Assembly: GCF_008831285.2 (NCBI RefSeq)
Contig: NC_045139.1
Span: forward strand, 23,790,412-23,854,411
Length of the DNA: 64,000 nucleotides
Source: Nymphaea colorata
Taxonomy: Eukaryota > Streptophyta > Magnoliopsida > Nymphaeales > Nymphaeaceae
Reading direction: 5' to 3'
The translations under genes and the position numbers were made by a program. Positions within the stretch are counted from its first letter, which is position 1. Every line of letters starts with the position of its first letter. The notes under the pieces were generated by a model, which was not told where the DNA came from, searched no databases, and saw nothing but the letters and a program-made list of their open reading frames with translations. This document shows, piece after piece, positions 3,181-64,000 of this stretch.

Positions 3181-3220
3181 GGAGTCTATTCACGCATCTC
3201 TCCTAGCGTGAATAGACTCC
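3181..3220 (-). other. Leader hairpin, 15-bp perfect stem and 10-nt loop
   Basis: GGAGTCTATTCACGC at 3181-3195 is the exact reverse complement of 3206-3220. It lies between primer site and gag. The same stem with a different loop occurs at 6219-6258 in element 2. The place and form suggest an RNA dimerisation or packaging structure; that role is inferred. Confidence 0.8.
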
Positions 3221-3390
3221 TCCACACTGTTCCGTTGCTGGAAAACAGCAACTAGAACAGGCGAGAGGTGAAGGAGAAAGAAAACGGAGGAAGTAGAAGA
3301 GATCAAGCCTGAAAGGGGACGGAGGATCGCCGACGGTGTGCGTCACGTCCGCATGCTGGCTGTGTGCTTCAAGTCTCCAGTCACGTCCGT

Positions 3391-3403
3391 AGCTCTGATA
3401 CCA
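3391..3403 (-). other. Primer binding site, initiator tRNA-Met type
   Basis: The minus strand reads TGGTATCAGAGCT, abutting the LTR end at 3404. TGGTATCAGAGC is the usual plant copia site pairing with the 3' end of initiator tRNA-Met. Confidence 0.9.
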
Positions 3404-3625
3404 TGTTGCAGCGGAGAAGAAGAGAGTGAGAGAGAGAAGCTACCGTGAGATTGAACCTTGAGAACTCTCTATTACGATAACCCTCATCTCTCTTATAAAA
3501 GAGATTAGGGTAAAAAGGGATTTACAAAATAACTCAATGGAAAATAAGGAAAATATTAAAGAGATCTTATAACTCTTTAATATTACAAGGAACCTCCTAA
3601 AACATAAAACTTTTCTTGTTCAACA
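3404..3625 (-). repeat. 5' LTR of copia element 1 (222 bp)
   Basis: On the minus strand it begins TGTTGAAC and ends GCTGCAACA, directly before the primer site. A TATA-like box (TTTTATAAG) lies near 3493-3500. U3 holds a 12-bp perfect inverted repeat with a 9-nt loop at 3552-3584. It aligns along its length with the LTR at 5746-5989. Confidence 0.9.
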
Positions 3626-5214
3626 CTTATCGTATATCAAATCATTTGCATGCATACATACATTCACTCACAAAACAATCATTCAATCACATCACAATCC
3701 TAGGATCCCACGATCCTAGGAACACATATTCACACGTTGGCCCCATGCAGGGATTTGCCTGGAATGCCGTCATACCTATCGCGCATCCACTAAACACCTC
3801 AAACTCTAACCCACGTTGCTCAAGGCCTACTTGACGTGCCCGGTGTACCTGCAAACATAATCAAATGGTAAGTTCTCTACTCGTTTCATTTTACAGTGTA
3901 TACAAGTAGAAAATATAACCAGTGAGGCATGTCATCGCCTCAAGAGGGTGTCGACGGGTAGTGTCGAACCACAAGGCCCTCCAATAGGCCTCTTCCCAAC
4001 TTCTTGTGGTTGCCACCAAATGTCAAAACTCAATGCTTCGATCAATCCATCACTAACACATTTCTCATTTGCTTTCTTTAGTCGAGGCGTCAACCCAATA
4101 GTTACATCCAACTTACGTATTCTTTCCCCAAATAACGCCAAGATACACCTATTCACAAAAGCATGCGCCACGTGCTCACTAAGACGGTTCTAAATCTTCT
4201 CCACAACATCACAATCTCTACCATGCTTCTCTATTGCTTCGAAAATCAACAACTCAAGCTTAAAAGATCAGTATAGACATGAATCATTGCTTCTCCAACA
4301 TAATCCTAAACTTTTTCCAGCAAAGTCGCTAACATGCATCCTAAAATCACCAATACTTAATTCTACCATGCTGAAACAATATTTATACGTGCTCCAACAG
4401 AAAATACACAACAATATAGGCTCGATTAGGCCTTGCTCACCCCAATTAAAGAGTCCAAACTATCGTAGTGTTCCCGACAGCCACATCAAGCGTTCAAACG
4501 ATCCTCAAACGACAGAAGTCATGCAATGCCGCCCCCACCAATGTCGTCTAGTCGCTGTTATGAGGGGAGGAACGCGTCCCCAAACTGCAATCCAATCCAA
4601 CAGTCACACGCACGAGTGAAAATCAGCGAGAAATAATGCAAGAGGAAGGTCTGCCATAGAATAGGGCCTTCGGCAGAGAGGGAGCTGAAGAGCATAGACA
4701 GAGAGAGAGAGAGTAGACAAAAGGGGAAAAGAGGAGGCAGATAGAGGGAGAGCTCTAGCAGGGAGTGCATGTGTAGAGGGAGGCACTGATAGAGAGAGAC
4801 AGACATAAGAGAGAGAGCGAGAGAGACGAGAGGGCAAGAGAGAATGCAGAGGTAGAGGACGTGCAGAGAGAGAGGGGGCGGCAAAAGGGGAAAAACACGG
4901 GAGAGACAGGGAACGGTGCGGTGAAGGGCGAGGGAGAAGAAGGAGAAAGAAAAGACAGGGAAGGACCGGCGTTTCTTACCTGTGCGATGCCGCCGCCGCC
5001 ACCGTTAACCTCTGTTGCCGCTGCTCAATCCTCTGCCTTCTTCTTCTCTGCGCTCTGTGCAACCCAACGGGATGAGACAGTGAAAAAGAGGGAGACGTTG
5101 AAGCAGACGAGGGAGAAAAGGGAAAGACGAGAGAAGAGGCGTCGGGCTCGTCTTCGTGTGGAGCTCGGGTCCGGGTTTGGACCCTGATCCGACCCGACCA
5201 GCCCAAAAGTCAGT
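3626..5214. other. No recognisable gene between the two copia elements
   Basis: No protein family could be recognised. A short palindromic repeat of CCTAGGATC type lies near 3700-3722. A purine-rich GA tract covers 4670-4960, and 4980-5200 is GC-rich with CCG repeats. Open frames here are short and follow base composition. It may be remains of other LTR elements, but no border was found. Confidence 0.5.
4670..4960. repeat. Purine-rich (GA)n low-complexity tract
   Basis: The stretch has runs of GAGAGA interrupted by short spacers, almost all purine on the plus strand. The serine/leucine-rich ORFs on the opposite strand are artefacts of it. Confidence 0.8.
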
Positions 5215-5745
5215 AACGTTACAGCTATGGTCGAGTCTCATACATGTTCTCCTATACCTCCATTGTATTATCTCAACTTAAGCAAGGAAGAATATGATCT
5301 GGTTCTTGCTAAGAGGTCTACTCCTGCCTCAAGCAGCATAGCTGCTATAGACACGGTTCTCTCTGTTGGTGCCCCTACCAATGACCCAGGTATGATATGA
5401 ATGATTGACTCAGGAGTATCCAGGCATTGTTGTAATCAACCACAGATGTTTTTATCGTTTACCAGGTTCACTACACCACAACACGTCAGGTTGGCTGATG
5501 GCAAGTTGTCTCCTATTCTGGGCAGCGGTGATATATATCTCACACCTTTTGGGACCATTACACATGTGCTATATGCTCCTCGATTTTTTGTTAACATGTT
5601 ATCTGTTAAGCAATTGGCTAGAGATTTACAGTGTAGAGTCATTTTTTATCTTGGTTCATGTTCTTTTCAGGACTTACAAACTGGGAAGATGATTGGTGGC
5701 GGCCATGAACGGGAGGGGCTCTATTTTCTCTCTGTTCCTATAGAT
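5215..5745 (+). pseudogene. Copia protease/pre-integrase fragment, broken
   Basis: The frame carries a gag C-terminal segment comparable to element 1 (SKEEYDLVLAK against NKSEYEDFLAH), then the protease motif DSGVSRHC, then the HVRLADGKLSPI and VLYAPRF blocks of the copia protease to pre-integrase region. A TGA at 5398-5400 replaces the tryptophan codon expected just before the protease motif, a G-to-A type change. The frame then stops at the LTR border. Zinc knuckle, integrase, reverse transcriptase and RNase H are absent. Confidence 0.85.
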
Positions 5746-5989
5746 TGTTGAATTAGAAGATTTTATGTTTCTAGGTAGCTCTTTGTAATATTAAAGAGTT
5801 ATAAGATCTCTTTAATATTTCCTTTATTTCTGTTTGATGTAATATGTAAATCCCCTTTCTACCCTAATTTCTTTATAATGGAGATTAGGGTTAGTGATTC
5901 AAAAAAATTTTCTTTCTCCAATCGTTATGTCTGCTACTCTCTCTCTCTCCACATCTCACGACACGGCTCCAAACCTCACGGCTGCAACA
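5746..5989 (+). repeat. LTR of copia element 2 (244 bp)
   Basis: It starts TGTTGAATTAG, ends GGCTGCAACA and is followed at once by the primer site, so it acts as a 5' LTR for the gag side. A TATAAT box is at 5874-5879. The U3 inverted repeat AATATTAAAGAG with its mirror is at 5787-5819, as in element 1. Confidence 0.9.
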
Positions 5990-6002
5990 TGGTATCAGAG
6001 CC
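5990..6002 (+). other. Primer binding site, initiator tRNA-Met type
   Basis: TGGTATCAGAGCC directly follows the LTR end at 5989. Confidence 0.9.
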
Positions 6003-6218
6003 ATCGTGACTGGCGACGTGAGGAAAGTGGTGGCAACGTGAAGAAAACAGTGGCTGGAGCGTGAATCAGGCTGGCAACGTGAAGGAAACTGTCGTCGGTT
6101 TCTCCTCCTCATGCTATCTCTTCCACCGTCTTCTTCTCAATCTCCCTCTTCCGTCTCCTTCTCCTGCTACACACATTTAGTTCAAGTTGACTGTCTTTCA
6201 GCAACTGAACCGTGTGGA

Positions 6219-6258
6219 GGAGTCTATTCACGCTATGAAATCTGCGTGAATAGACTCC
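6219..6258 (+). other. Leader hairpin, 15-bp perfect stem and 10-nt loop
   Basis: GGAGTCTATTCACGC at 6219-6233 pairs exactly with 6244-6258. The loop (TATGAAATCT) differs from that of element 1 while both stem arms are identical. Confidence 0.8.
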
Positions 6259-6838
6259 AGCTATGGGTGTCTAAATATATATTTTTTATCGCAGCTGGGT
6301 GGGAGTCTACGGTAGTTTATGTTGAATGTTTTTTTTCTGTCGCTATTCATGATTAGTGGCAAATAATCTGTGGTACAGCAGCGTTAGATGCATAAATAGA
6401 TAAGTTGTTGGTTGCTAAAGACAGTGCAAGCAGTGGGAATTTTTTTTTACCGTTGGATTGCTGGATTTTCTCTTGGATTGCTGGGTTTTCTCTGTCGTGG
6501 GGTTGTTGGACAGCAGTCTTCTATTTGTATTGCTAGTGCTGTCAGTCTTCTATTTGTGTTGCTGGATTGTATCTGCCGTGGGAGTGTTGGACAACAGTCT
6601 ATCGTGGGATTTCTCTCTATTGTTAGGTTGCTGTTTTCTGCTGTAGGGTTGCTGTCAACAGTTGGACAGCAATCTGTTATCGTGGAGTGTTCAGAAACTG
6701 TTTGGAAAAAGTGTTTTTGCATCTAACGTTGTTGTGTGGTGTTGGACATATGTTATTGCTGATCAGTCGCAGTCTTTATTGATATATATACATATTCTCG
6801 CTTGCTGGTGGTGGGTGACCATTTGTGGTCTGATTGCG

Positions 6839-7026
6839 ATGGCTGAAAATCATAGAACTGATTTTTCTTATGAGATTAAAAGCAGAGGAAATCTATTCGT
6901 CTATGATTCTACTGTAAAGTTAGATGGATCCAACTACGAGATTTGTCTCGTGTGTTTATGATGTGTGTGATTGGACATCGGAAGGAGCATGTTATTGAAG
7001 AAAATGAGCCTGTGGAAAAGAGTGGG
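6839..7026 (+). pseudogene. Copia gag N-terminal fragment, frameshifted
   Basis: The ATG at 6839 begins a frame closely matching element 1 gag (VKLDGSNYEI shared). One base is missing in the tryptophan codon after YEI near 6943, which shifts the frame. The homology resumes in another frame (IGHRKEHVIEENEPVEKSG) and ends abruptly at 7026, after which the sequence is unrelated. Confidence 0.85.
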
Positions 7027-7371: not shown

Positions 7372-7657
7372 TGTAGAAACACGAACCACAAGGAGAGAGC
7401 AGAGAAAGAACACACAATATACGTGGAAAACCTCAGAAAGAGGTGAAAAACCACGGGGAAGCTCTGACCTAGGGGCAAACTGCAACCCTAGGAAAGAGAA
7501 AATAATATTCACTTAACTCAACAATTACATGTAAGTGAAGAATATATAGGAGGGAGAGAAAGAGTGCCGCCTAGGGTGCCGAGCCTGCCTCGGTATCCAT
7601 GCCCCATAGGACCAGGTCCAGATATGGACCCGGTTCCCAATACAATATATTCTAACA
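7372..7657 (-). repeat. 3' LTR of copia element 3 (286 bp)
   Basis: The plus strand reads TGTAGAAACACG to ATATTCTAACA. The end of the RNase H frame (stop at 7652-7654) overlaps its first bases. Confidence 0.97.
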
Positions 7658-10600
7658 CTCCCTCTCAAGCTTGACATACATGTCAAACATGCCAAGCTTG
7701 CTAACATTTTTCTCAAATTGAGATGTACATAAAGACTTAGTTAAGACATCCGCAACTTGATCTTCAGACTTCATATAGGGCAGAATCAACTCCTTTGAAT
7801 CTATGCGTTCCCGTATGAAGTGACGATCGATCTCCACATGTTTGGTCCTGTCGTGCATGACCGGATTGTTTGCCAAGTTAATCGCAGACTTGTTGTCACA
7901 ATACATCCTCATCTTCTCTTCCATTTTAACCCCAATATCTGCTAAAAGAATTTTGAGCCATAACATCTCTGTAACCCCCATAGCAACCACCCTGTATTCA
8001 GCCTCAGCACTGGACCTGGAACAAACTTCTTGACGTTTACTTCTCCATACTACAAGGTTACCTCCAAGAAATATGCAGTATCTTATGGTAGACCTCCTAG
8101 TATCTGTGCATCATGCCCAGTCGGCGTCAGAGTATCCTTCAATGCTTAGTTGATCTTGTCGAGTGTAGAGTAGTCCTTTCCCTGGGTCATTCTTTAAGTA
8201 TCCCAATACTCTTTCAGCACTTTTCCAATGACAATCAGTAGGGGCATGCATAAACTGACTTAACACACCCACAGCATACGTAATATCTGGGTGAGTAAGA
8301 GTGAGATAAATAAGTTTACCAACCAGACGCTGATACCTCCCTTTTCCTTCCTCATCCAAGATAGTCCCAGATTTGATACTTATCCTTGTGCCAGACTCCA
8401 TTGGGGTAAGAAAGGGCCTGCATCCCAGTTTACCTGTCTCTTTTAGAAGATCCAACGTGTATTTTCTTTGGCTCATAACAAGCCCAGTCTCAGATCGCGC
8501 GATCTCAATCCCCAAGAAATACCTTAGTTTACCCAGATCTTTGAGATCGAATTCTGCAGCTAACGTTTCTTTCATCTTCCTTTTCTCCCCCTCGTCATCA
8601 CCTGTGACAATCATATCATCAACATATACAAGTAAAAGGCTCACCAGACCATTTCTCTGCTTGATTAAGAGAATGTGATCACCATTTCCCTTTTATACCC
8701 ATTAGTCTTCATTACAACCCTTAGTCTTTCAAACCAAGCTCTAGGGGATTGCTTGAGACCATACAAAGCTTTCTTGAAATAGCAACACTTCCCGTTCCGA
8801 GCATACCCAGGCGGCATGCTCATATAGACTTCTTCCTCAAGGTGACCATTCAAGAAGGCGTTCTTTACATCAAGTTGGTCCATGCTCCACTTCTTTTGCA
8901 CTGCAAGAGCTAAGATGACCCTTATGGCCTTCAGTTTCGCCACGGGAGCAAACGTCTCAAGATAGTCAATCCCATATTTCTGGCTAAACCCTTTAGCAAC
9001 AAGACGAGCTTTATAGCGTTCTACAGTGCCATCAGGTTTGTACTTCACATTAAACACCCACTTGGAGCCAACTAAGTGAGTTCCCTTGTGGATATCAACA
9101 ACCTCCCACGTATTGTTCTTTTCCAGGGCATCCATCTCTTCTGTCATGGCCTGTAGCCATTGAGGATCCTTCCTTGCATCTTCCACTGACCTGAAAATAA
9201 CAGCCATAGATAAAGAGGTAACAAAGCACTTGTAGTCTTTACTGAGTTTTGCATATGAAACAAATCTCTGAATAGGATGAGAAGTACATGACCTGGTGCC
9301 CTTGCGCAGAGCTATGGGAAGTTCTTCATTCATTGGACTTGGATCATCCGGGGAGGTCACAAGATTGGGAAGATTGGGATTGGTAACATCAACATCTTCC
9401 ATCACATCCTTCTTCTTCCTGCTGTAAACCTGACCAAATAGGTGATCTCGAGACTGTTCTTCCACAGGGCCCCCCTCCATCTGACTGTCTCTGTCCTTAC
9501 TAACAACGTCTTCCACACTTGGAGAACTCACCGTATAATCCAAGAAATCCATGAACTGAATCAACTGATGCGAAGAATACTCTTCCCTTCTGTCACCTAG
9601 ACACTCCCCCTGAAGAGGATTCGCAGGAAAGTATGCCTCATGTTCAGGAAAGGTCACATCCCTGGAGACATATACTCTGGAAGTGCTAGGGTCAACACAC
9701 CTGTATCCCTTCTGGGTGGAGGAATATCCCAAGAAGACTGCTTTGATGGACCGAGGATCAAGTTTCTTGAGAGTGGGACTATGATCATGGACAAAACAAA
9801 CACACCCAAACACTCGAGGGGTTAAAGGCCAGGGATTCTGAGTGGGCCACAACACAGAATAAGGGGAATGACCATCCAACACACGAGTAGGCATACGGTT
9901 GATAAGGTGAGCACTAGTGAGAAGTGCGTCCCCCCAGTACCTCTTAGGGACATGACGTTGAAACATAATTGCTCGAGTAACATTTAACAAATGACGGTTT
10001 TTTCTTTCAGCCACGCCATTCTGAGGAGGGGTGTAGCTACAGGATGTTTCATGAATAATACCTTTGCTTTGCAAGAAGTCATCAAGGGATTGGGAACTCT
10101 CGGGCATTGTCAGTACGGAAGGCCTGAACAGTGGTCTGGAATTGAGTTTCGACAAATGCCACAAAGTTTTTGACAATGTCGGGAACTTCACTACGTTCTT
10201 TCAACAGATACACGAACGTACACCGGGAGTAGTCATCAATAAGAGTCATAAAATAGTGAAAGCCACGACAAGTGGGTATTGCCGAAGAACCCCAAACATC
10301 AGAGTGAACCAAAGCAAAAGGACGGTTGGCTTTATTGAACGAAATAGGGTACGAGGCCCTAACATGCTTAGACAACTGACACACTTCACAGGCAAAGGCG
10401 TCCAAAGAAACAGAATGAAACATCCTAGGAAACAACTTTCTAAGCAACTGGAATGGAAGATGACCAAGTCTCTCGTGCCAACGCATAATGACGGATCTGG
10501 CCTCCACGCCAGGCAACTGTCCACTGGTGGCTGAAATCAAAGCAGAAGCAACTCGAATGGGCAGTCTGTAGAGCCCATCAATAGCCGAACCAATCCCAAT

Positions 10601-11945
10601 CTTCTGCCCCGTCCCCAAGTCCTACAGGAAACAACGATCAGCAGAGAAAATTAGATTACAGTTTAGCTCTTTGGTAATACTGCTGACAGATAACAAATTT
10701 ACGGGAATATTGGGAACATGCAGGGCATTATGAAGACAATATTTGTTCAGTAGTGATAAACTCCCTTTTTCCAGCCACAGAGATAGAAGAACCATCAGCC
10801 ATAGACACACGCTGCTGCCCAGAGGTCAACTTATACTCTTGAAACATCGTAGGGTCCCCTGTCATATGATGAGTAGCCCCACTGTCAACAATCCAATCAC
10901 CGAGAGGAGAATTACCTTGATCACTAGTAGCAACCAGAGCCTGGGCTAACTTAGCCCCCTCAGAAGTAGAAGCATCATCCTGGGTAGACAACCGAATAAT
11001 GTAGGCTTGCAATTCGCTGAGTTGATCGGAGGAGAGCTTGGATTTGGCAACATTGGACGACCCCGGGCTAGGCTCTGGCACAGAAGAAGCACGGCGATGA
11101 GGAGGAGGACGACCTCGGACGAGACGCTTCTCAGGATGAAGATCCAAACAAAAATCAACAGAATGACCCACTTTGTTGCAATGGCTGCATCGTCGAGTAG
11201 GACGCTGCCCCGTCCTTGAAGTATGGCTCACAAAGGCTGCTGGAGAACTCCCCTGATGGGAGTCAATATGCATAATCTGGCGCCGTTGCTTCTCAGACTC
11301 AATACGGGCATACACCTCTTCGATTCCAGGAATCTCATCACAGTTAAGAATCTGGCTTCGAATGGTTTCAAACTCATCATGCAGGCCTCCAAGGAAGATA
11401 AAGGTGCGATCCATCCATTCCTTTTCCCAATACAGGGCATGATCTACACCACATTCCCAGTCATCATTCACATGATAGTCAAGTTCCTCCCATTTGGTCT
11501 TCAGGGCGGCATAGAAGGAGGCAACAGATAAATCACCCTGTTTAAGAGCATATATGCTACGTTTGATTTGATAGGCACGTAAAACACGCTTCTTACGACC
11601 ATACATATGGGCAAGAACAGTCCACATATCATATGCCGTCGATTTACGCAAGATCAAAGGCTGAATATCTGCGGAAACCGAACTAATAATCCATACTTTA
11701 ACCTGACTATCCTCCAACGCCCAGGTCGGCCATTGCGAATCAGTTTTAGAAGGAGCAGGCTTCTCCCCAGTGATATAGTGCAGGCGACCACGACTAGTAA
11801 TCCCGATTTCTAGGGCAGCAGACCACGAGAGATAGTTATCCTTGTTCAGTCGAATGGATGTGACATGAACAGGTAAGTTCTCACCCTTGGTATTGTTGCC
11901 CGTGTCGAGGGCATCATCAAGCTTGGGCATCACTGCGTCAGCCAT
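7652..11945 (-). pseudogene. Copia gag-protease-integrase-RT-RNase H, multiply broken
   Basis: The start is the ATG at 11945-11943 (MADAVMPKL). The longer frame upstream begins only with TTG. In order: gag; CCHC knuckle (CSHCNKVGHSVDFC); protease (DSGATHHMTG); pre-integrase (HERLGHLPF); integrase ([21 protein letters not shown]); reverse transcriptase ([32 protein letters not shown]); RNase H (SSAEAEYR, YCDNKSAINLA, TKHVEIDRHFIRE). Breaks: one extra base in an A/T run near 10766-10770, TAG at 10622-10624 replacing a likely glutamine, a frameshift near 10098-10106 in integrase, a frameshift near 8680 just before YVDDM, and TGA at 8111-8113 after DADWA. The copy cannot encode a polyprotein. Confidence 0.95.
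7658..7669 (-). other. Polypurine tract of copia element 3
   Basis: The minus strand reads CTTGAGAGGGAG directly before the 3' LTR, the expected plus-strand primer site. Confidence 0.85.
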
Positions 11946-12305
11946 TGCAATCCCCAAAGAAGGTCACAACCGGCGGGAGAGAGAGCACAACCCACGGCGG
12001 CGGCGCAGATAACCCAGGCGACGGCGGCAGGGCAGCGCTGGGAGCAGCGGAGATAACCCAGGCGACGGCGGCGCTGGGAGCAGCGACGGCGGTAGGGCAG
12101 GGCAGCGCTGGGAACAACGGCGGCGGCGTTCCTGGATGGCGGAAAAAACGACGGCGGCGCTCTTGGACGGCGTCAACACTGAAAACAGTAACCGCAGCGG
12201 CGCTGGGAACAGTGTCGACGGCGGTGCTGGAAACGGCAACGGAGGCGGCACGAGAACGGCGGAAAAAAAAAACACTACTTGCACACCAACGATCTCACAC
12301 GCGGT

Positions 12306-12318
12306 GGCTCTGATACCA
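12306..12318 (-). other. Primer binding site of copia element 3
   Basis: The minus strand reads TGGTATCAGAGCC, directly next to the 5' LTR. Confidence 0.92.
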
Positions 12319-12604
12319 TGTAGAAACACGAACCACAAGGAGAGAGCAGAGAAAGAACACACAATATACGTGGAAAACCTCAGAAAGAAGTGAAAAACCA
12401 CGGGGAAGCTCTGACCTAGGGGCAAACCGCAACCCTAGGAGAGAGAAAATAATATTCACTTAACTCAACAATTACATGTAAGTGAAGAATATATAGGAGG
12501 GAGAGAAAGAGTGCCGCCTAGGGTACCGAGCCCACCTCGGTATCCATGCCCCATAGGACCGGGTCCAGATATGGACCCGGTTCCCAATACAATATATTCT
12601 AACA
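12319..12604 (-). repeat. 5' LTR of copia element 3 (286 bp)
   Basis: Same ends and length as the copy at 7372-7657. The primer site abuts at 12318 and the target duplication abuts at 12605. Confidence 0.97.
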
Positions 12605-23260: not shown

Positions 23261-23917
23261 TCAGAACTTGACGTTCCGCTTGCACTCCATGTTCCGAACC
23301 TGCTGGTCCAGGGCGGCGACGTCGAAGTCGCAGTTCATGCGGACCCTGACGTGCTTCCGGATCAGGCCCAGTCGGATCCGACCCTCAACGCTGGTCTCGC
23401 TGCTCATGTGGAGAGGGCTGTTCATCAGGGCAGCGGCGGCCAGGAGCCCTACGTTCCCCATGATCCGATCCGTCATAACGTTGACCGTCACGGACAACTG
23501 AATCGTCCGGCGGGCGGGAGCCGACCCCGCCGGGGCGAGCGCCTCGCCGATGACCGTCCCGTTGTAGGAGATGCTCGTCGTGCTCTTGTCGTACACGAAG
23601 GAGACGTAGTTCGGGTTCTTGACGGAGACGACGGTAGTCGCCGTCAGGTTCATGACTCCGCCGGGGAACCCGAACTGGATCCCGCTGAACGTCAGAGACT
23701 TCGTCGTCAGCTCCGGGTCCCGAGCCTTGAAGACGGTAAGCGCGAGCGTGGTGATGACGACCGCGAGCAGGACGATGACTGTCGCGGCGATGATGAGCGC
23801 GCGGCGGCGCCTTTGGCTCTTCTGACGGCCGAGCCCCGGCGGGCTGCCGGATTCCTCGTCGCTGCTAGCTTGATTGGTCCTTCCGGACAACGGACGCATC
23901 TGATCCGGCGTCGACAT
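23261..23917 (-). CDS. LEA_2 / NDR1-HIN1-like membrane protein
   Basis: A single-exon frame of 218 residues, starting at the ATG at 23917-23915. Codons further upstream lack ATG (the longer frame starts at GTG). The protein has an acidic and basic cytosolic N-terminus, one hydrophobic segment at about residues 41-64 (starting ALIIAATVIVLL), and a C-terminal LEA_2-type domain from about residue 85. That domain includes the family signature around KNPNYVSFVYDKSTTSISY and a following VIGEALAPAG turn. Plant proteins of this layout (NHL/HIN1 group, LEA-14 fold) are type II membrane proteins of plasma membrane or endomembranes, often linked to stress or pathogen responses; the exact role cannot be read here. 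The GC-rich coding sequence contrasts sharply with the AT-rich surroundings. No disruption is seen. Confidence 0.85.
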   Translation of the reverse strand: MSTPDQMRPLSGRTNQASSDEESGSPPGLGRQKSQRRRRALIIAATVIVLLAVVITTLALTVFKARDPELTTKSLTFSGIQFGFPGGVMNLTATTVVSVKNPNYVSFVYDKSTTSISYNGTVIGEALAPAGSAPARRTIQLSVTVNVMTDRIMGNVGLLAAAALMNSPLHMSSETSVEGRIRLGLIRKHVRVRMNCDFDVAALDQQVRNMECKRNVKF

Positions 23918-23964
23918 CGCTCCCTCCACCTCTTCTGCCGTCGAGGCGAGACAAGCTTGGTCCC

Positions 23965-23972
23965 TTTTTATA
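23965..23972 (-). promoter_or_regulatory. Candidate TATA box of the LEA_2 gene
   Basis: The minus strand reads TATAAAAA, 48 bp before the ATG at 23917. That would give a very short 5' untranslated region, so the call is tentative. Confidence 0.4.
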
Positions 23973-25190
23973 ATTGGGAGGCGAGGGACGGGAGAACCCA
24001 GCGCGATTTTTTTTTTTTCCCTTTTAACCAGTGGGTCTATGAATGTAAATTGAGTTCATGTAAATTGAGTTCAATGACTATAATACCCCTGTTCAAAATA
24101 TGGGTTTGGATCCAAACTTATTAGATTTGGATTTTCAACTGAGGTAGATAAATTTGAAGAACTTAGGCGCAATTCTTTGGCTTGAGAGTGACTAAGAGAG
24201 CCATTTTTCACTGGATTTTATCGGTCCGGATGATGAGCGACGCCGGACCGAACCAAGATCAAGTCGACGGGGAATTATAATCTTCTAGAGAAAACAATTG
24301 GCAACAAAGTCTTGGGTCCTTTTTAATGTTTTTTTCAAAGAGAAGACGTGTGCAATTTTCATTAGAATATTCAGACCGAACAATCCAAGTGTTCACTCTT
24401 CCTGACAAAACATAGCATTTGAGCGAGTGCTTTAATACTTAACGGAGTCCTCCAATCTACTGTTTAATTGAGTTTTCGTTGAAGAGAGAACGCTCAAAGC
24501 CTTTTAGTTCAAGTGGAAAGCGTATACGCACCACCCTGTGTATAAACTTTCGGTATGGTGGATATCGAATGACCAAAATGCCCTTGATCTGATATATATA
24601 TATATATTAAAGATAGATAAAATGTTCGAAAATCCCCTTTGGGCACATGCGTTGTAGGGAAAGGTTTGGTCGAAGGCCAAGACATGCCCACTCTTGTCAA
24701 CCCCCTTACCAAGGGGAGGGCACCGCATGGGTCGTGGCCCTACCTTAAATTTTTATTTATATAAAAAAATATATGTAAATTTTACTTGTTTTACATGAAA
24801 ATTTTAAAAAATGATATTTTAGCTCTGTCACAATTTAGAAACTTTAATTCGACCCTTTTTATGAAAAAATTTTAGCTTTTCCCTATAATTATGACTAATA
24901 TGATTCTATTTATTTTCCTGCTACTGATATACAGAAGAGACAGTAGGACGTGGTGAGCACAAGGTGTGCTCCATATTTATTAAGATGCACACCGACACGT
25001 TGCCTCAACCCTCAACTCTTCAACTATCAGCCTCCCCACCTCAACCTTTCCTTTTTTATTCTTAATTTGCGCCATCAGAAATGGTTGCCGGTGTTCAGCC
25101 TACTCTTCTCTGTGTGTGTATATACACACATGAATGTGAGAGAGAGAGTGTGTATATACACATGAATGTGGCCCGTGGGAGATAGAAATT
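23973..25190. other. No recognisable gene
   Basis: Upstream DNA of the LEA_2 gene, then AT-rich sequence with a short TA run near 24594-24608 and a GAGAG/TGTGTATATACAC repeat near 25110-25160. Confidence 0.5.
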
Positions 25191-39400: not shown

Positions 39401-42400
39401 GTAAGTTTATAGCATTTAGCAAAATAATAAGTCTATCATTATCTAAATGACTAAAACATGTTTTCTATGAAGAATTTATTATTTTTAATTTTTTCTGATT
39501 TTTTTATGAATTTTTCGATTTTTTTAAATTTTTTCTGATTTATTATTATTATTTTTTAAAAATTTACGATATGGTTACGATACGCTATGATACGGCGTAT
39601 CTTAAAGCCCGACCAATACAGCTTACGATACGCGTTTTACAACATTGGTATCGCCTATAAGGTACAATACAGCCCCCGTATCGTACGATACACAAGCATA
39701 TCGTGTATTGAAGGCATATTGTATAGGTTCAAAGTGTAGCGCATCGTTACGAACCTATATGATATGTATCACACGATACGGGCCCATATCATGCAATCTG
39801 GATATCACAAGGTAAAACACTACCTATGATACAGTGTTTGTAGTTTGTACGATTGTTTGTCTCAATGTTATCTGTGTCGTACGATATACATGCGTATCAT
39901 ACAATACATATCGTATAGATTTAGAAAACCTATACGGTATGCTTACGATACATGATACGCTCGTGTATCGTAAGTTTATCGCCTGTATCATACGATACTG
40001 GTGCCGTATCATACGATACTGGCAATACACCCCCGTATCGTACGATACAGGGAAAAACACAAAATTCGTTATGTTTTAAAGTTTAAACACTCCTCCCTCT
40101 CTCTCTCTTCTTGTGTTTAAAGACTCCAAGAGACATGGGAGGGATAATCATTGTTAAGCCCAACAAAAATGATTATAGACTAATAGTCAAATTTGAGAGA
40201 TACAGACTTGTTGGCACTCTCAGCTCTTCCATTGTCGCCATCCAAAACTGCTATTTCTGCTTCATCAATTTTGATTAATCCAGTGACATATATTTTTGCA
40301 GGAATTTGTCCTCCAGTGGAATAAGCCTTTCCTTGCTCAGGATCGTTGAGTGAACTCTAACAAAATATGGCATCCAGTAAGTAAACTCAAGAATCACCCA
40401 AAGATCTAATCCAGAATGGCATAAAAGGTGAGTTACCTTAAACTCTACATCATATTTTCCAACATCAACACCATTAGAAAGAAAATCAATAGAATGAACA
40501 GAAGTCTCTGAGTCAAACTCCATTTCCTGATGAAAAAGATTAAGAACAACAAGAACTAAGTCAGTATTCACATAGTAAAGGAACATCGAATTAATCAATC
40601 TGCTATAAAGCAATATACTCATCACATGCCTCACGGTTAAGGAAAAGAGCAGAAAAAATACTTACATTGCAAATGCATGTTTTAAAAGATCTTGCATTTC
40701 AAGGGCAAAGAAAAAGTAGCACAAAAATGCATTATAAAAGGTAAGCAAATCAATATTGCAAAATGTTTACCATAACCAAACAGTTAGATCCAAGAAATAA
40801 AATATTCACCATAACATAAGATGGAGTAACATATCATAAAAGTTATGCAATTTAATTTGAAAAAGTCTAAAAATCAGTAAATCTAGAAAAAGAATAGAAA
40901 ATACTATGCAATATATTCAATACAAAACAAAATTATAAATCACAATATCTGGCAAGTCATCACTCATCACGCAATTCACAAAATTTAAAACTATATACTA
41001 AGGATAGCATGCATATTTTGCAAGAAATATTTAAAGCAGAACTTAACTAATTAAACAGTAAATAGACTCAACACTTAAAAAATTAACTTCTATTATTTTA
41101 CATTTCAACCAACCCAAAACTTAAAAATCTCCAAAATGCTCATCTTCAATGTGGAACCAGACTTTTTTGGATAAAACCATGAAAGACCTTTTTCATGGAT
41201 GAAACAGACGCCAAATGTTATTGTACAGCTGACAATATGTTGGAGGCTAAGAGTCATCCTTAAGGAACTTTATCCAACCTCAAATTACAAACACAAATTC
41301 AGAATTTTTTTAAGGAGTAATTAAGATGCATGTTACATAACAGGACATAAAGGTGGATCAAGATTACACCTAACATTATATAAATACGCCCTTGAAACCT
41401 CATTCAGGGTGTATTATATCCTGATTTGTTTGGAGTCACCATATATACTGTAAAATATTATATGAAATGCACAACGATGAACAAAAGTTACAAAACAGCA
41501 TAGGTCCACCTAATTTGCCTTTAATTCGTTTCCAACTTCATCCCTGACAGAGGGGCAACCAAAAGCCCATCCCTGCCTTGACGTAAATCCATCCTTGAAA
41601 TTTGCAGTCGCCTACAATACTCATGCACTAGAAGAACAGGACTCCTTCCTTTGAAAATTAATTGTAGTTCATTCCATTAACTTATTTATTTTTTCTAAAA
41701 GAATTCATGTTATGTGTGCTCGCATCCAATAAAATAAAACCCATTGTTCTAAATTTCTAAATACAAATTTTCATGATTAGCCATTAGCATTTGTTAATGT
41801 GTCCAACAAAAGACAAACTTTTGCCAATCTATTTAGAAAGATAACAACTATGTCCCCTTTATCCTTTTTCCATGTGTCTGGGCAAACTGAACTCTTTCTA
41901 TAGGAGGTTTGAAAAGTGGACACATTACCTTGTCTTGAATTGCTGGTGAATCTTTTAAGAGAGGATTATGTGCTTGTACAATTGTTACAGTCAGAGGAGG
42001 TGCTTCGGACCCAAACACTCTGCTTACTTTAACCTGGTACATAACAAAACAAAATATCAACAGCTAACACTAATGAATAGACAAATTAAATATCAAAAAG
42101 CCACACAGCCAGTTTATCAATATTCAAAACCCCATATAAAGAGTTCTTAGGGCATCAGCAATAAAGGCAGATACATGTCCCCATCATGAGCAGGACAAAA
42201 GACAAAGGAGAAAACAACAGGTATGCACCACAGTGGCATGAAAAACAGCAGAACAGCTGTCAAAACTCTAATAGTATTACCAACCTACTAACACCTAAAC
42301 ACTAAAGTATTGATGCTGGTTCTACGTGTTCCTGCTGACTTGTCAGTATGACAGATGGTCCATCAGGAACCTCAAAGTACAATGACAGAATGGCAGAACC

Positions 42401-57400: not shown

Positions 57401-58981
57401 AGAGATGGCAAGACGATTGCTTTGTTTCGGTATTAGGTTCAATTCCAAGAATTTGAAATGTTCTCAACGCTTCATACATTTCCTGGAATCTGAGGAAAAA
57501 TAAATAAAATCAACGTGTTAAAAGTGCTACTACAAAGACTAACAAATGCAGACACAGAAAATTATGTGTATCTTGATATAATCAGACCTTTATAAACCCG
57601 TTTTCGTTAAGTTAGAAGAAGTGGTTCACATGACCTTTATAAACCCGTTTTCGTTAATTTAGAAGAAGTGGTTCACATGCTCCATTTTATCGGCATTGAC
57701 TCTCGGATTCTTCAATTCAACATGCCAGCAAGCCGTTAAAGTTTTGCAAGGACTCAAATTAACAGTTTTATATAAAAATGAAAGACTCATAAAATGGTGC
57801 TTGTTTACTGGATCTGGAAAATTTGAGAACAAGTTTCTCTGGTTTGAGAAAAAAAATGCTCAAAGTCATGCATACTCAGAGATTCTGCTATGGTAGCATT
57901 CCCTACACCTACATTATCGTTTCTGCAGTAGATAGCATCAGATAAATACATACAAAAGTACAAGTCGGTCAATTTATGAAGCATATTTTAACTATTTAGG
58001 GAGAAAAATAAAACTTTTATGATACAAAATGTTACCTAAATAGTCAAAAATCAGAAATCAGACACAAAATCAAGTCCCTGAAAGGCTAGTCCAGACTACT
58101 CGGCCAAGTCAGTACAACTTGTTCTTCAAAATGAGAAAAAATAGAAAACATAAAAGCACGACAATTAAGTGAGGAATAGAAGACAATAAAACATGACATC
58201 TATAGGAATAGACGCAACAAGTTGCTGTCCATATGCACGAGTTACTATTCATTGACATAGGTAAAAGACAACCTTCGGAGGTAAAGATATTTATGTTCCA
58301 GTTATATGCACAATGTTACTAAATGTCAATAATAATAACGATCTCTATTTTCACGGTGAGACATACATAATGCCAATATAAGTTGTTAATTCACAGCTTT
58401 CACAAGTAATAGTAAATCTCCTACTACTCCAAGTACCTTAGAGAGAAGCACTACTCATGACAATACTTTCAACGATGCCAGAATGTTATTAAAAAATTTA
58501 AATTCGTCATCAATTCGTGATTAATATATTCAACAAAAAGAAATTGCAGAAAACTTCTATATCACCGATCACGCCTTTTCCCCACTAGGGAACAAATCCA
58601 ACATTTCCCCGGAAGATCAATTCACTGATCCTGCTATTGTCAGATAACTTACGCCGAAGACCACACAACTAACGCAGATCCAACCACAAGACCAACCAAT
58701 TCTACAGATGAAAATAGAAACAAAAAAGAAGCAAAAAGAAGGATCTCGAGGGCGAGAAAATAGCGAAGACTTATATAATCAATAATCAAAGGGCAACAAA
58801 ATACGATTGGAACAGAGATCGGGAACGAAATAGCTAACCCGCCGAAGGAACCATCTTCGGACGGCGCGAACAACTCCAATGCCGCGGATCGGTGGCGATC
58901 CGAAATGGGAGCGAACACTGCGCCCTCCGAGCAAACACATATGGAAAGTATGAGCAGCAACAGGCCTATCTTCCGGTCCAT
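33437..58981 (-). CDS. RPN2: Ribophorin II, oligosaccharyltransferase subunit (19 exons)
   Basis: Subunit of the ER complex that transfers glycans to nascent proteins (yeast SWP1, Arabidopsis HAP6). Coding exons, 5' to 3': 58981-58839, 57489-57297, 57170-57081, 55395-55333, 55236-55167, 52207-52143, 46751-46697, 45869-45742, 45640-45525, 42945-42876, 42033-41929, 40526-40437, 40356-40208, 37765-37654, 37576-37493, 36256-36176, 36096-35872, 35004-34882, 33553-33437. All introns are GT-AG and phases agree; the sum is 2079 nt (692 residues plus stop). The ATG at 58981 opens a signal peptide ([11 protein letters not shown]). Family marks: [61 protein letters not shown], and three C-terminal membrane helices (about residues 595-613, 630-653, 660-676). 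Introns 5, 6 and 13 (2.4-5.4 kb) are swollen by transposons; introns 12, 14 and 16 are about 80 nt. No coding damage is seen. UTRs not defined. Confidence 0.95.
38460..40050. mobile_element. Older palindrome-rich hAT-like copy A (P family), right limit uncertain
   Basis: The left border CAATGTTGTCAAAGGCGTAT matches the ends of elements C and D. Element B sits inside it. To the right of B come more decayed GTATCGTACGATAC units (39678-39691, 40035-40048) and variants. The expected CAACATTG end and duplicate of GGTGAAAC were not found, so the right limit is a guess from where the palindromes cease. Lies in RPN2 intron 13. Confidence 0.55.
38994..39647 (-). mobile_element. hAT-like palindrome-rich element B (654 bp), nested in A
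   Basis: Ends are CAGTGTTGTACG and GTTTTACAACATTG. Flanks ATATCGCC (38986-38993) and GTATCGCC (39648-39655) form an 8-bp target duplication with one change. GTATCGTACGATAC lies at 39056-39069 and 39078-39091. Its interior matches element C in reverse orientation (CCCATTTTTTCGA region and the segment around GATTCCCATTGGGAGG). No transposase. RPN2 intron 13. Confidence 0.85.
47537..48243 (+). mobile_element. hAT-like palindrome-rich element C (707 bp)
   Basis: Starts CAGTGTTGTAAAAAG and ends ATACAACACTG. ATCCATAG at 47529-47536 is repeated exactly at 48244-48251. The palindrome is at 48145-48158, with further GTATCGTACGTATC variants up to the end. The first about 90 bp match the left ends of A and D. 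RPN2 intron 6. Confidence 0.92.
48353..48436. repeat. 37-bp block repeated at 47-bp spacing
   Basis: GCATTTCAGACCACAATAG and the following bases occur at 48353 and again at 48400 without change over 37 bp. Confidence 0.9.
48607..49224 (-). pseudogene. L1-type LINE ORF2 C-terminal remnant (zf-RVT region)
   Basis: Minus-strand frames, with stops, give TGSCPLCCC then HEPLIF then [15 protein letters not shown] and [17 protein letters not shown], followed by [16 protein letters not shown]. This is the cysteine-rich zf-RVT block and following region at the C-terminus of plant L1 ORF2. Several stops and shifts show it is dead. The upstream part appears to lie right of 51574, split by an inserted element. 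A 37-bp block is tandemly repeated in its tail (48353-48436). RPN2 intron 6, same strand as the gene. Confidence 0.65.
50002..51072. mobile_element. Middle nested element with GGCGCCTGG-type repeats (about 1.07 kb)
   Basis: Left end CTATGTTGCTAAGGC and right end GCACCTTGACAACATAG are imperfect inverted repeats. Flanks ATAGTATA and ATAGTAAC agree in 6 of 8 bases. Direct and inverted CCTAGGC and GCCTGG repeats fill both ends. It lies inside the outer element and contains the inner one. Confidence 0.55.
50272..50610. mobile_element. Inner hAT-like MITE, CTAAGTCACA ends (339 bp)
   Basis: Left end CTAAGTCACATGGGTAC and right end TGTGACTTAG. GTTATGTT at 50264-50271 is repeated exactly at 50611-50618. 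Terminal ends resemble those of the outer element. Non-coding; GGGTACGG-type repeats near both ends. Confidence 0.88.
51449..51497. repeat. (TA)n then (TAA)n microsatellite
   Basis: About 28 bp of TA followed by seven TAA units. Confidence 0.95.
51583..51720 (-). pseudogene. Second part of the interrupted LINE remnant
   Basis: The minus strand gives [10 protein letters not shown], resembling the stretch just before the zf-RVT cysteines in plant LINEs. Removing 49233-51574 plus one duplicated 8-mer brings it next to the [10 protein letters not shown] segment at about 49195-49224. Short and decayed, so tentative. Confidence 0.4.
52909..53878 (+). mobile_element. hAT-like palindrome-rich element D (970 bp) with GC-rich cargo
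   Basis: Starts CAATGTTGTAAAAAGCG and ends CGTACAACATTG. GCAAAAAT at 52901-52908 is repeated exactly at 53879-53886. The palindrome is at 53854-53867. The terminal parts match A, B and C, but the middle (about 53220-53730) is GC-rich, unrelated to B or C, and looks like captured host DNA. ORFs there (for example 53282-53572) match no family I recognise. RPN2 intron 5. Confidence 0.92.
57585..57678. repeat. Tandem duplication, 2 x 47 bp, in RPN2 intron 1
   Basis: The unit beginning GACCTTTATAAACCCG occurs twice with one difference. Confidence 0.93.
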
Positions 58982-60281
58982 CACTGCAAATCAGGCCGCA
59001 TGAGAAACTTCAACTACGAAACGAGAGAAGGAAGGACAGAAAGAGAGCACAGAGAGTAGAAGAAAGACCCTAAATTCTCGTTCGCCGGCTCACGCGTGGC
59101 GATAGGTTCCTCCTTTCTTCTTCTCCCCTTCCCTTTCTGGAGGGTTTGCTGACTCCGGGAAGAGGAAGAGCGAGGAAGGGAGCTCCGCTCGACCAGGGTT
59201 TTGTGAACTCGAGAGGACGGAAATACCCTTAACCATTTTTCATTTTTACTCTTGTTCTTCCCACAGACGAGCAGGGATCAGGGCCACAACGTAGACCTTC
59301 AACCGTCAAGACGCACAGCCGGATACTAGGTCGTTGACCCCTTTCGTCAATTTAAAGGTCCTAAGGAACTTTCTGCAATTTAAAGCTCATAAATTTAACT
59401 TCCTTTATGGTTTAAATGTATTTTCAAGTTTTTTTTTCAATGAAAGGTCCCAAACTTCAAGCCCTTGGCCGAGTGAATGGAGCTCTTTTATTAGATCAAT
59501 GGTTTTGCCGTCGCCAAGATCGTTGCGTGGCAGACTTTTTTATAGCAATTTTTTGTTTTAATTTTTTTTTTAAAGAATGGGTGCTTTATTCCACCGCGTT
59601 TTAAGAGAAACCACAGCTGCAGCTCAATAAGCTACAATCCCTTTGAGTTTTTGTCTAAATTGATTGATAAAAAAAAGTAACGAGCAAAATTTGGTTGCTT
59701 TTACATAAAGACTTTTTTTTTACTAGACTATTTCAAGCTTATAAGTATTAAAACTTAACCTACGTACTACTAGTAATGGGAATTAAGACATTATAAACAT
59801 CAAATATAATTGCCCTCGCTTAGTGAGAATTCATGGGCCACGAAGCACAATCTAAGTCACAGTAGCTACCCTTTGATGTGTATTTTACTTGCAGTAAAAA
59901 GTAAAACTTCATAGCATGTAGTGGCCTTCAAATACCTTAGTATACGGCATGCTGTCTCAAGGCGTGTGCATATCCTGGTTGACTCACAAACTATATTGGA
60001 ATATGTAAAGATTTATATCTGAGATTGGATTTCTTTCTCATCATTTAGATTAAGTTGTTGCTCTGTGGGAAAATCAATTAGCCTTACTCCTGTTTGTCAT
60101 GTATCCTTCAACAATTCAGTAACATCCTTTCTTTAAGAGTTAAAACCCCAATTCTTTTGATCGCGTGAGTTCAATTTCAAGGGAATAGTAAGTTTTGCTA
60201 AATCCTTCAAATGGAATTTGTCATAACAACTTGTTTAAGATTATCATATCATTAGTATTCTCTCTTTAATAATGATATCAT

Positions 60282-60283
<2 letters not shown>
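58982..60283. other. RPN2 5' region, then no recognisable gene
   Basis: The first 100-250 bases upstream of the RPN2 ATG are moderately GC-rich with GA runs and should hold its 5' untranslated region and core promoter; no clear TATA box was seen. From about 59330 the DNA is AT-rich and unassigned. Confidence 0.5.

Positions 60284-60345
<62 letters not shown>
60284..60345. repeat. (AT)n microsatellite
   Basis: About 60 bp of uninterrupted TA. Confidence 0.98.
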
Positions 60346-60349
<4 letters not shown>

Positions 60350-60663
60350 AATTAGAGAATACTGTATATATGAACAAATGTCCCTGAGGATGTTGGTGCA
60401 ATGGGCAGGGCAAGAGCTAGTAGGCTGCCCATCTCTATTGTGAATCACCAGGCCGTCAACTATCTGTACTGCAAAAAAATGGAGAGGGGTGATGATGCAC
60501 GAGTTGAAACGCGACGATGGCAGTACTCTGAGGCATGGAATGCAAGCCATGTATCCTAGAGAGAAAAGGAATTGGATGGGGGCATCGGTGGAGGGTCTCC
60601 CCTACTCATCGAGATATAGGAACCATAAACTGCTCTTAGATATGATTTTAGCAAACCAAATAT
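60346..60663. other. Unassigned sequence downstream of the FHA-like ORF
   Basis: No recognised feature. It could belong to the same LTR element, but no second LTR or polypurine tract was found. Confidence 0.4.
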
Positions 60664-61784
60664 TCAAACTTCTGGCACTGTCCGTGAATCGGCTGTCCGC
60701 TCAGGTAATGGGAGTAGACCTTCATAACTGCCCCTTGAATCCTTTACAAAAGGGATGGTCTTTAGAAGAGGCAAAAGACCTTTATAACCGTCCTTCCTTT
60801 TTTGCACTGTTTGGGGCTCGTTATCCATTTCCCTAACTATTTTAACAGGGGATTCGAACGTAGAACTTCCCTTGTTTGCTCTTTCGATATCCTCTGCAGT
60901 CCGTTGAGTCACCCTCGGTACTGGCTTAGCAAGCGTTTTCATGGAGAAAAACTGCCTATATACTTTAGCAATGCCCGTACGCCGTGGTGGGGGAAATGAT
61001 TCCAATTTCTGTGGCATAACCTCCTCATTAGATTTGTCTGAGACTAGCTGTTCAGTAGCTTGAGGAGTAGCGAGTAATCCTTTTTGTGTTTTAAACAAGA
61101 GTGGTCCATGTGTGACCTTTAATTCCGTCTGACTCTCGCTTGGGGTTCTGAGAGGGAAGTATTTGTTGGCTGATCCCAATATGCCGTTGTTGTCCTTCGA
61201 ATTCATTTGGCTTGGGGCCATAGGCGTGTGGTTCGTGGATAAGGAAGGACTAGGGGTATGTAGTATCCCCTGCTTATCAGTGACGACCTTTGTGCCCTTT
61301 GAAGGTTTAATGATAAGAAGGTTGGCACAACCTTTATTTGGCAATTCTGGCTCCTCATCACTTGATGATTCTGGCTCATCAGTTTCTGACGAGGTTTCAT
61401 CTTCACTGCCATCACTGGATTCCTTGTCTGACTCCGTATCTGATTCTAGAGTATTGCCTCTAACATCAGTTTTGAGTTCATGGTCCCTACTTGGATGACA
61501 TCTCCGGGATGGATCCTCCTCTTAGAGTAGGGTTTGATGTTTTTTCCCTCTACACTAAGCTTACCCATCCTATTGTTGATCCACATTTTACCGGTTTCTC
61601 TTTCGATGTCAATCTCAAAATGTCGGTACATCACACTAAGGTGCGTGATTACCTTATCACAAGAGGAAGAGCTACCAACGTCTACAAAGATCCATGTTGG
61701 GTTTTGGACCCAAGTGGCTCCGCGAACCATCCAATCTCTTTGCACACAGACTCCATTCTCATAGGTGCTGAAGAAAATATCCAT
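60664..61784 (-). pseudogene. FHA-like ORF with acidic linker, one frameshift, in gag position of an LTR element
   Basis: A true ATG at 61784 opens a frame whose first about 100 residues resemble a forkhead-associated domain: YENGV, then HLSVMYRHFEID (histidine of the S/H motif), GKLSVEGKNI (in place of NGT-VNG) and HPGDVIQVG (in place of L-GD-I-iG). Near 61490, just after GDVIQVG, the frame shifts by one base. The other frame continues smoothly with a very acidic Ser/Asp/Glu stretch (ESDTESDKESS and on) and then about 220 residues rich in T, P and K, with a repeated Y-GLLPLP motif near the end, stopping at 60664. No zinc knuckle, protease or polymerase is seen. It lies about 770 nt downstream of a primer site. 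It may be host DNA captured by a non-autonomous LTR element. The FHA call rests on motif reading alone. Confidence 0.4.
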
Positions 61785-62548
61785 TCTGCTCTACTAGACA
61801 GCACCTCAATACGTCTTCTATACTACTAACAAATTGCTGAAGCAAAGAGCACACCAAAAACGTTTAAACTGCTACACTGCACTACGCTGAAACAAATCTT
61901 TCCTACTGAAAACGAACTGCTCCAATCTGCCTGCTCTGATAAGCTGCCCTCGTGCATTCAAAGGAGGTGAAAAAGTTCACCTGTCACCGCACCTCGAGCT
62001 CAAGCACCTTTTGAGTTGTGCGGTAGGCACTCCTCTAGTCTAGACTGTTTTTAGTACAGTCAGAAGACTACGCACAGAAATACTTAACGGTGGAATTTCG
62101 CCTTCACTTTTGGTCAGCAACTAGATAGGATAGTTACCTAACTACCCACCAAAATTTAGCTCAATCTGACCTCTGGAAGCCTCTGAACCAACTTGGTCTT
62201 CCTGCCGGACTGGTACCCGGACAGGTTCTGTTTACTCAGCTCATATCGCCTAAAACGGTTCAAAAGCTGGTAGTTCTAGGCCGAATCTCTTCTAGTGGTC
62301 TAAACAACTTCTGTAGAGAATTTAATTATGAAGCTCTCCACCAATTTTGAGGCTATTCCTATCTCGTCTGCTCCTGGAAGGGCTGATTTAGTATCGCTTA
62401 CTGTCACAGTCCAGAAATTCAAAAACTGCCTACTGCTGAAACTATAAAACCGCTGAAAACCAAAGCTGACGAATCTGCCTACTACTGCCTTTGAATGTTG
62501 AATCTTCAATGCCAAGCGTGTGTAGAGTCCAGATTTTAACCTCAAGAC
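61785..62548 (-). other. Leader between primer site and FHA-like ORF
   Basis: About 760 nt without a long open frame. Position and length resemble the untranslated leader of plant LTR elements. Confidence 0.5.
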
Positions 62549-62561
62549 GGCTCTGATACCA
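62549..62561 (-). other. Primer binding site, initiator tRNA-Met type
   Basis: The minus strand reads TGGTATCAGAGCC, two bases from the TG/CA border at 62564. Confidence 0.8.
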
Positions 62562-62563
62562 AT

Positions 62564-64000
62564 TGTTAGGATCGAAACCCACGGTCGACTAACCCGAGTG
62601 TTCAATCCTAAAGCCAAGATCTCCTGAGGTTCGCATGAACTAAAAACCTAATCAAATCAATACAAGGAACTACCTGGCCGGACAGGACCCCGGCGCAAAC
62701 CCAATAGGGCGAGGCGTACAAGTAAGGGTATTCCCAAAATCCTAGCTAAGGTATATCCTACTACTACAAGCAACTACAAGAGGTGTGAGGCCTTACAAGC
62801 GTATGCGATACATTGAAGCACTCGCAACTCACTCAACAAACCACACAAACCATTTACTATCGATCAAACCACACCCGATTCCCAAATAGGAAGGTTGAGC
62901 CCTCTGTGGTCGTGTCTTTGGCGCTTGCGCCTTAGAGGTACCACTAGGGAGGACTGTGGCCGAAGCCGGGCTAAAGCAAATACAGAAATCAAACTAACAT
63001 GTACCTAAACTACCACCCGTGGACTACAAGGGGGAGAAAGAGTCAAACCGGCCAAGCAAGCTTGGCGAATCCACGAGATAGGACCACGGGATGAACACCA
63101 AGTCCCGGGTATCACAGCTACGGTTCTAAATTTCCGATTGAGGAGAGCCTCCACGTAGCTATGGCAACGGACCCGCTGAGATGGGCCGAAGATGGCCGTC
63201 GCTCGGGCAAGATGTGCCGAGGACAGCTGGGAAGGGGCAGCCGCCTGCTGCCTTAGACCAAGAGAGAGCGTGGAGTCAGGCGGCCACTTGCTGCCTTACG
63301 CCGATGGAAATAGCGACCGCCTGTCGTTAGGGCACGGGCTGAGGATGCGGCCGTGGATGACCGAAATTGCCGAGGGGGGCTGATGCCGGTTGGTCGGCAA
63401 CGCCTACCTGCCTGCCTTCAGAAGTGGCTCGGCCACGCTAGGTCGAGGGAAGGCCGACGAGAGATTGGGGTGGCCGAGGGAAGGACCGCGGACAATAGCG
63501 AGGGGGAGAGCACGCGGCCTGACCTAGTCCTAGCTAAGGCTCGGGTTAGATCGGGTTGGATGGGCTCTATAGGTAGGCTGGTCAAGTCAAGAGAGGCTAA
63601 GGTTGGGGTTGGCTGGGAATAGATGAGCCTCGGTGGGGAATGGTTCACCTAACTAGTAGGTAGGCTTAATAGGGTGAGGCTTAGGTGCGAGCACTAGGCT
63701 CAGGTTGGTCACGTTGACCAGTTGAGAGAGAGGGGTTGACTAATTGGGTAAGCAAAGCTAGGTGTGGACTGAGTGATAGGTTCGGGACGTAGGTGTGAGG
63801 GGCCCACGTGCTATGCGCGTGGTGCTAGGGTTGCGCTAAATGAGGAGTTAGCTAAGGGATAAAGGGCAATGGCTAGGACTTACCTAATCGAGCTAAGGGG
63901 AGTCAAGGCTGACAGTGTAGGATGAGGCTACAATTTTGGAGTTGCCTAAGTGAAGAGAGGTGAGGTGGCGCACGCGAGGCTGACCTAAGGGGTAAGTGGG
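62564..64000 (-). repeat. Probable 5' LTR of the FHA-like element; right limit not seen
   Basis: The plus strand begins TGTTAGGATCGAAACCC, so the minus strand ends ...CCTAACA next to the primer site, as an LTR should. No matching second copy exists in the window, so length and right border are unknown; part of 62880-64000 may be other DNA. It is GC-richer than the middle of the window and has no recognised gene; ORFs at 63192-63648 follow composition. Confidence 0.4.

Follow-up and report, generated by a model that had tools for sequence, protein, structure and literature searches.

A reading frame with an FHA-type domain behind an LTR border and primer site in Nymphaea colorata

Background

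Does a reading frame with an FHA-type domain, located behind an LTR-type border, belong to a retroelement, and, if so, in what role? The question is raised by the last few kilobases of a 64,000-nt stretch of Nymphaea colorata DNA (contig NC_045139.1), the whole of which is called the window below. A sequence-only reading of this locus had proposed that a captured phosphopeptide-binding module occupies the gag position of an LTR element. Several additional frames of plant LTR elements, namely ORF0, the upstream ORF of Ogre and the antisense ORFs, are without a tested function; an FHA fold in such a position would, if true, provide one of them with a testable partner-binding role, and a signalling-type domain would join the short list of those gained by plant LTR elements. 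Should the case be a one-off capture, it would matter little.

Results

The LTR border, the primer site and the leader

On the minus strand, the LTR 3' end, GATCCTAACA, is followed by the dinucleotide AT and then by the primer site TGGTATCAGAGCC (62561-62549), which we take to be of the initiator-Met tRNA type. The reading across the border is TTTCGATCCTAACA-AT-TGGTATCAGAGCCGTC, which places the LTR end at 62564, where TTTCGATCCTAACA terminates in CA. The plus strand carries GGCTCTGATACCA at 62549-62561, an exact match located 2 nt from the LTR end; a tRNA primer site is therefore found directly inside the 5' LTR, as in LTR retrotransposons. The suspicion that this match could be due to chance was addressed by counting: the 13-mer occurs in three exact copies on the two strands of the 64,000-nt window, against 0.0019 expected with uniform bases. 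When up to two mismatches were allowed, five matches were obtained, against a mean of 0.94 in shuffled sequences, a number reached in one of 100 shuffles. A positive control is provided by an element with two LTRs within the same window (7372-12604), which carries the same 13-mer at its 5' LTR; this genome thus uses primer sites of such type, and the border first proposed from the letters is sound.

The 5' LTR extends on the minus strand over 62564-64000, with its 3' end at 62564 and its outer end not fixed, and no Pfam match above cut-off is contained in its frames. A candidate start is TGTTAG at 62999, the sole occurrence on the minus strand of 62564-64000, and short TTAGCTA motifs, read by eye, recur on either side of it. 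The LTR would then measure 436 bp (62564-62999); since only TGTTAG/CTAACA stands behind this figure, and a hexamer is expected about 0.35 times per 1437 nt by a calculation made by hand, this length is not claimed. Otherwise, the outer end may lie past position 64000, beyond the window.

Between the primer site and the ATG at 61784, a leader of 764 nt (61785-62548, minus strand) was measured, in agreement with the previous estimate of about 760 nt. It contains two upstream ATGs, opening frames of 2 and 43 aa. Upstream ATGs are depleted (2 against 6.67 expected, P=0.017), and the antisense strand behaves in the same way (3 against 7.43, P=0.026). Because both strands show it, the depletion is uninformative on translation and was discarded as evidence for it.

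Other retroelement sequences are found in the window. The two-LTR element at 7372-12604 lies on the minus strand, with LTRs at 7372-7657 and 12319-12604 that are 98% alike and a primer site at 12306-12318; by eye, it is flanked by the target-site duplication GGTTC and appears to be of Copia type, and its frames are broken up. In the region 2498-7025, inverted arms form at least five pairs (76-148 nt, 76-90% alike), and outward-facing primer sites are present at 3391 (one mismatch) and 5990; the region seems to consist of two related elements in opposite orientation. Matches to gag_pre-integrs and rve are present in the frame 745-2277.

The FHA frame

The first long frame behind the leader starts at the ATG at 61784, in the strong context AGAATGG, and encodes 112 aa followed by a stop (61446-61784, minus strand). 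The FHA-like motifs first noticed by eye in this ATG-started frame are borne out by the profile search: the translation matches Pfam PF00498 with E=1.9e-7 and 31.9 bits, above the curated cut-off of 20.7, over positions 2-67 of the 67 in the profile. The match covers residues 37-102 of the 61790-61446 translation, i.e. about 61682-61485, and none of nine shuffles of the same residues produced an FHA match. The second-best Pfam family, Yop-YscD_cpl, presumably FHA-like itself, is found at 2.2e-4, its 21.9 bits falling short of the family's cut-off of 33.2. An FHA domain at 61784-61446 is thus supported at the level of sequence profiles.

Other observations on the frame give it no support or speak against it. 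Its length (114 codons) is within chance, as 32% of the shuffled versions of the 2.18-kb region reach it, and its codon use gives no support, because one antisense frame scores higher (0.089 against 0.062). A sequence search of PDB, with E values up to 10, matched no FHA structure; the two matches obtained, at 0.006 to a KEOPS Pcc1 chain and at 1.1 to an uncharacterised protein, were set aside as chance. The single-sequence AlphaFold model of the FHA piece reached a pLDDT of 40.4, too poor for a structure comparison or for a test of the 11-strand beta sandwich.

The phosphate-binding site was read from an alignment of the FHA piece to two FHA chains from PDB and a typed consensus. Two published accounts describe the roles of the residues in the site, including a structural Gly and His (PMC6468809), and a phosphothreonine held by a triplet of Arg, Ser and Arg/Lys (PMC4157861). 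The structural residues are kept, as G39 and H57 of the 61790-61446 translation; the Arg-Ser-Arg/Lys triplet is absent, with Ser40, Met54 and Tyr55 in those places. The position of the Asn in the beta6-beta7 loop, where the alignment is uncertain, is occupied by Ser79 according to the alignment, or by Met75 or Gly76 by eye, so that this residue too was probably lost. The initial description as a phosphopeptide-binding module is accordingly not supported for the present copy, because the phosphate-contact triplet is absent. Two substitutions are needed to turn Ser into Met, a slight indication that the loss preceded the decay of the copy. Self-docking of the FHA piece on T-P sites of the tail described below, of the kind known from GarA-type proteins, was considered and set aside, the phosphate triplet being missing.

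The tail frame

A second frame, of 285 aa and a stop (60664-61521, minus strand), lies in the -1 register relative to the FHA frame and overlaps it by 76 nt (61521-61446). None of 2000 shuffled versions of the 2.18-kb region contained a run of 285 codons. After 15 residues, it encodes a stretch of 60 residues, marked off by hand, with a net charge of -12; the remaining 211 residues contain 10% P, 9% T and 9% K, and are mildly basic (net +9). The acidic linker previously described is therefore present, and the richness of the tail in T, P and K, although real, is modest. Both parts belong to a frame other than that of the FHA part, a circumstance at which the sequence-only reading had hinted by mentioning an "unshifted version". 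The codon use of the tail frame is nearer to that of five retroelement frames of the window than that of its five other frames (0.081 against 0.049 or less). The tail is probably disordered. No Pfam family was matched with an E value better than 0.31, the match at this value (PEPcase) being regarded as chance, and no NCBIfam family match was accepted up to E 1; two L6 matches in the latter set, at 0.0033 and 0.0097, are also attributed to chance, with 17.3 and 15.7 bits against cut-offs of 185.4 and 184.

Neither frame contains an internal stop. At a neutral divergence of 6.5%, zero stops would be observed with P 0.05 (the overlap being counted twice), and a neutral divergence above about 6.5% since the frames were coding is unlikely. 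A programmed -1 frameshift, by which the two frames could be read as one, is possible but unsupported, as inspection of the 76-nt overlap by eye revealed no canonical slippery heptamer.

Extent of the remnant and search for relatives

A second LTR was not found within the 64,000-nt window, a result read as truncation: the locus is described here as the remnant of an LTR retrotransposon, not as an intact one. Neither a polypurine tract (PPT) nor a target-site duplication was seen, the 3' end of the element being missing and the 5' outer end not fixed. All 58 stop-to-stop frames of at least 40 aa in 59000-64000 were scanned against Pfam, and none matched gag, protease, integrase or reverse transcriptase; FHA was the sole match above cut-off, and a Cdd1 match at 0.034 (14.8 bits, cut-off 25.5) in the plus-strand frame 59416-59604 is considered as chance. 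The reported lack of gag, protease, integrase and polymerase is thus confirmed. The same cannot be said of the proposal that the FHA frame occupies the gag position: only the 5' part of the element is present, so that gag-pol could have stood downstream, and with no second LTR the absence of these genes does not show that the element never had them. Downstream of the tail frame, roughly 320 nt in which no protein was recognised precede an (AT)31 microsatellite (60284-60345), and the remnant probably ends between this repeat and 60664.

No relative was found in viral contigs, scanned with the FHA frame and with the tail frame, or in prokaryote genomes, scanned with the FHA frame; plant elements are not expected in either collection. 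A prokaryotic origin of the FHA frame was rejected, as the scan of prokaryote genomes gave no relative and the tblastn search of plasmids gave none either, its six matches all having E values from 5 to 8. The FHA-bearing remnant is thus known from one broken copy, within the window.

Discussion

Interpretation of the locus and alternatives

LTR end, primer site, leader, FHA domain and long tail frame lie on one strand and in the order of an element. The preferred interpretation, to which we assign an even chance, is that a plant LTR retrotransposon has decayed here and left its 5' part, in which the first frame encoded an FHA-type domain, then an acidic linker and a tail of mildly basic character, and was an additional element gene of the ORF0 type. 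The combined ORF would have belonged to the element itself and, on the RNA driven by the LTR, would have been the first to be translated; at a later time, a small indel would have broken it into two, and the element would have lost its 3' part. The evidence in favour of an element includes the primer site at the border, the control offered by the neighbouring element, the FHA profile match, the 285-codon frame, the codon use of the tail, the strong start codon and the absence of stops. Against it stand the single copy, the missing second LTR, the PPT and target-site duplication that were not seen, the length of the FHA frame, which is within chance, its codon score, exceeded by that of an antisense frame, the ATG depletion shared by both strands, the poor structure model, the lack of an FHA match in PDB and of relatives in the viral and prokaryote collections, and the fusion of FHA and tail parts, which is assumed because they lie in different frames.

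Three other explanations are ranked below the ORF0-type gene, in the order in which they are given here. The frame could derive from a one-off transduction, in which a single copy of the element took up a piece of the mRNA of a host FHA gene that never served as an element gene and is now decaying. The intronless frame behind the leader, its split in two, the absence of the phosphate-contact triplet and the precedent of Bs1, with its host gene pieces, would all agree with this; however, the FHA frame is the first of the element and has a strong start codon, and no stop interrupts either frame, in keeping with a sequence maintained for translation; a one-off event is regarded as rather unlikely. 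The model of the sequence-only reading, a wholly non-autonomous (LARD-like) family that lacks gag-pol, carries an FHA-bearing ORF and is moved in trans by a partner, appears quite improbable. It would account for the 58 frames without a gag or pol match, but the remnant seems to end a few hundred bases past the frame, with no 3' LTR, so that this absence is uninformative, and a non-autonomous element is no more likely than an ORF0-type frame that preceded a gag-pol since lost.

Gene fragments next to LTR elements abound in plant genomes; this, together with the fact that no second copy with both parts was seen in the one window, is what could be said for two chance neighbours, a truncated LTR element and a retrocopied or truncated fragment of a host FHA gene. 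However, LTR, primer site, 764-nt leader and ATG follow one another on the strand, in the order and at the spacing of an element, and with a solo LTR the primer site would have been lost; this explanation is judged very unlikely.

If the ORF0-type interpretation is followed, its product might have joined the RNA or the particle of the element by its basic tail, while the FHA surface docked a host nuclear protein, a mode of action that is offered as tentative and somewhat doubtful. Docking by way of a phosphothreonine is unlikely for the present copy, because the phosphate-contact residues are absent. It is a still more speculative and, on balance, unlikely idea that a plant LTR lineage carries in its first frame a docking module with an FHA fold, a counterpart of the chromodomain of chromoviruses, kept by selection and with phosphothreonine binding lost or changed.

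Comparison with known elements

In the grass LTR elements Retrosat2, RIRE3 and RIRE8, an ORF0 lies between the 5' LTR and gag-pol; its protein diverges faster than gag-pol, has an unclear part in transposition and was modelled as hydrolase-like or acyltransferase-like, and the term FHA does not occur in that paper (PMC3485330). An extra frame in the same position is what these elements share with the remnant, but theirs is followed by gag-pol, and the likeness is one of position, not of ORF0 sequence. Ogre carries an ORF of 550 codons, whose function is not known, between LTR and gag, again with no occurrence of FHA in the paper (PMC1142308). Like the frame of the remnant, it is a long one in the LTR-gag interval. 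The primer site of Ogre differs from that of the remnant.

Pieces of cellular proteins on LTR elements have precedents. Maize Bs1 contains host-derived pieces of an ATPase, a xylan endohydrolase and a glucanase in frame (PMC13317346); the likeness lies in the combination of an LTR element with a piece of cellular type, and the difference in the pieces themselves. Gypsy elements that gained domains, such as 2-ODD/AlkB in Phalaenopsis (PMC9289625), share with the remnant a cellular domain on an LTR element. This survey, anchored on reverse transcriptase and covering 121 angiosperm genomes, reports 15 extra domains, all in Gypsy and none in Copia elements; nine are named in the main text (PMD, G-patch, AIR1, DUF1409, YgdH, L26/KOW, B3, ArgoL2 and 2-ODD), from which FHA is absent, and the other six lie outside it (PMC9289625). 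Owing to its anchor, elements without reverse transcriptase would have been missed.

That no LTR element with an FHA domain was known to the sequence-only reading agrees with the literature searches, in which none was reported by title or start of abstract among the papers listed. In three of these papers, FHA is used otherwise and appears as an entry in a gene table (PMC2533677), in a count of genes of transcription-factor type (PMC4076063) and in the title of a reference (PMC3002893), and in a mini-review of extra ORFs neither "FHA" nor "forkhead" occurs. The observation is real and, by its domain, unusual, although made on a single broken copy; it is best placed as a variant among LTR elements whose frame is additional or captured, rather than as a new kind of element.

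A probable neighbouring gene and a further frame

On the same strand as the remnant, a frame at 58990-58649 starts about 1.7 kb to the left of the stop of the tail frame. It is presumably the first exon of a ribophorin II gene; profile and sequence searches with this frame gave no match. The frame 35830-36171 matches the chain of human OST subunit 2 in PDB (0.00038) and, below cut-off, Ribophorin_II_C (0.00031), and a further Pfam match below cut-off, at 40275-40661, belongs to the same probable gene. A ribophorin II gene with long introns is thus probable on the minus strand of 35830-58990, and the FHA remnant lies upstream of it, at a distance of about 1.7 kb from its start. Within it, at 57585-57678, a 47-nt unit is present in two tandem copies, 98% alike. 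Elsewhere in the window, the frame 23261-24055 shows a LEA_2 match (E=7.5e-13), coincides with a GC peak of 57% and carries an open frame of 294 codons on the opposite strand.
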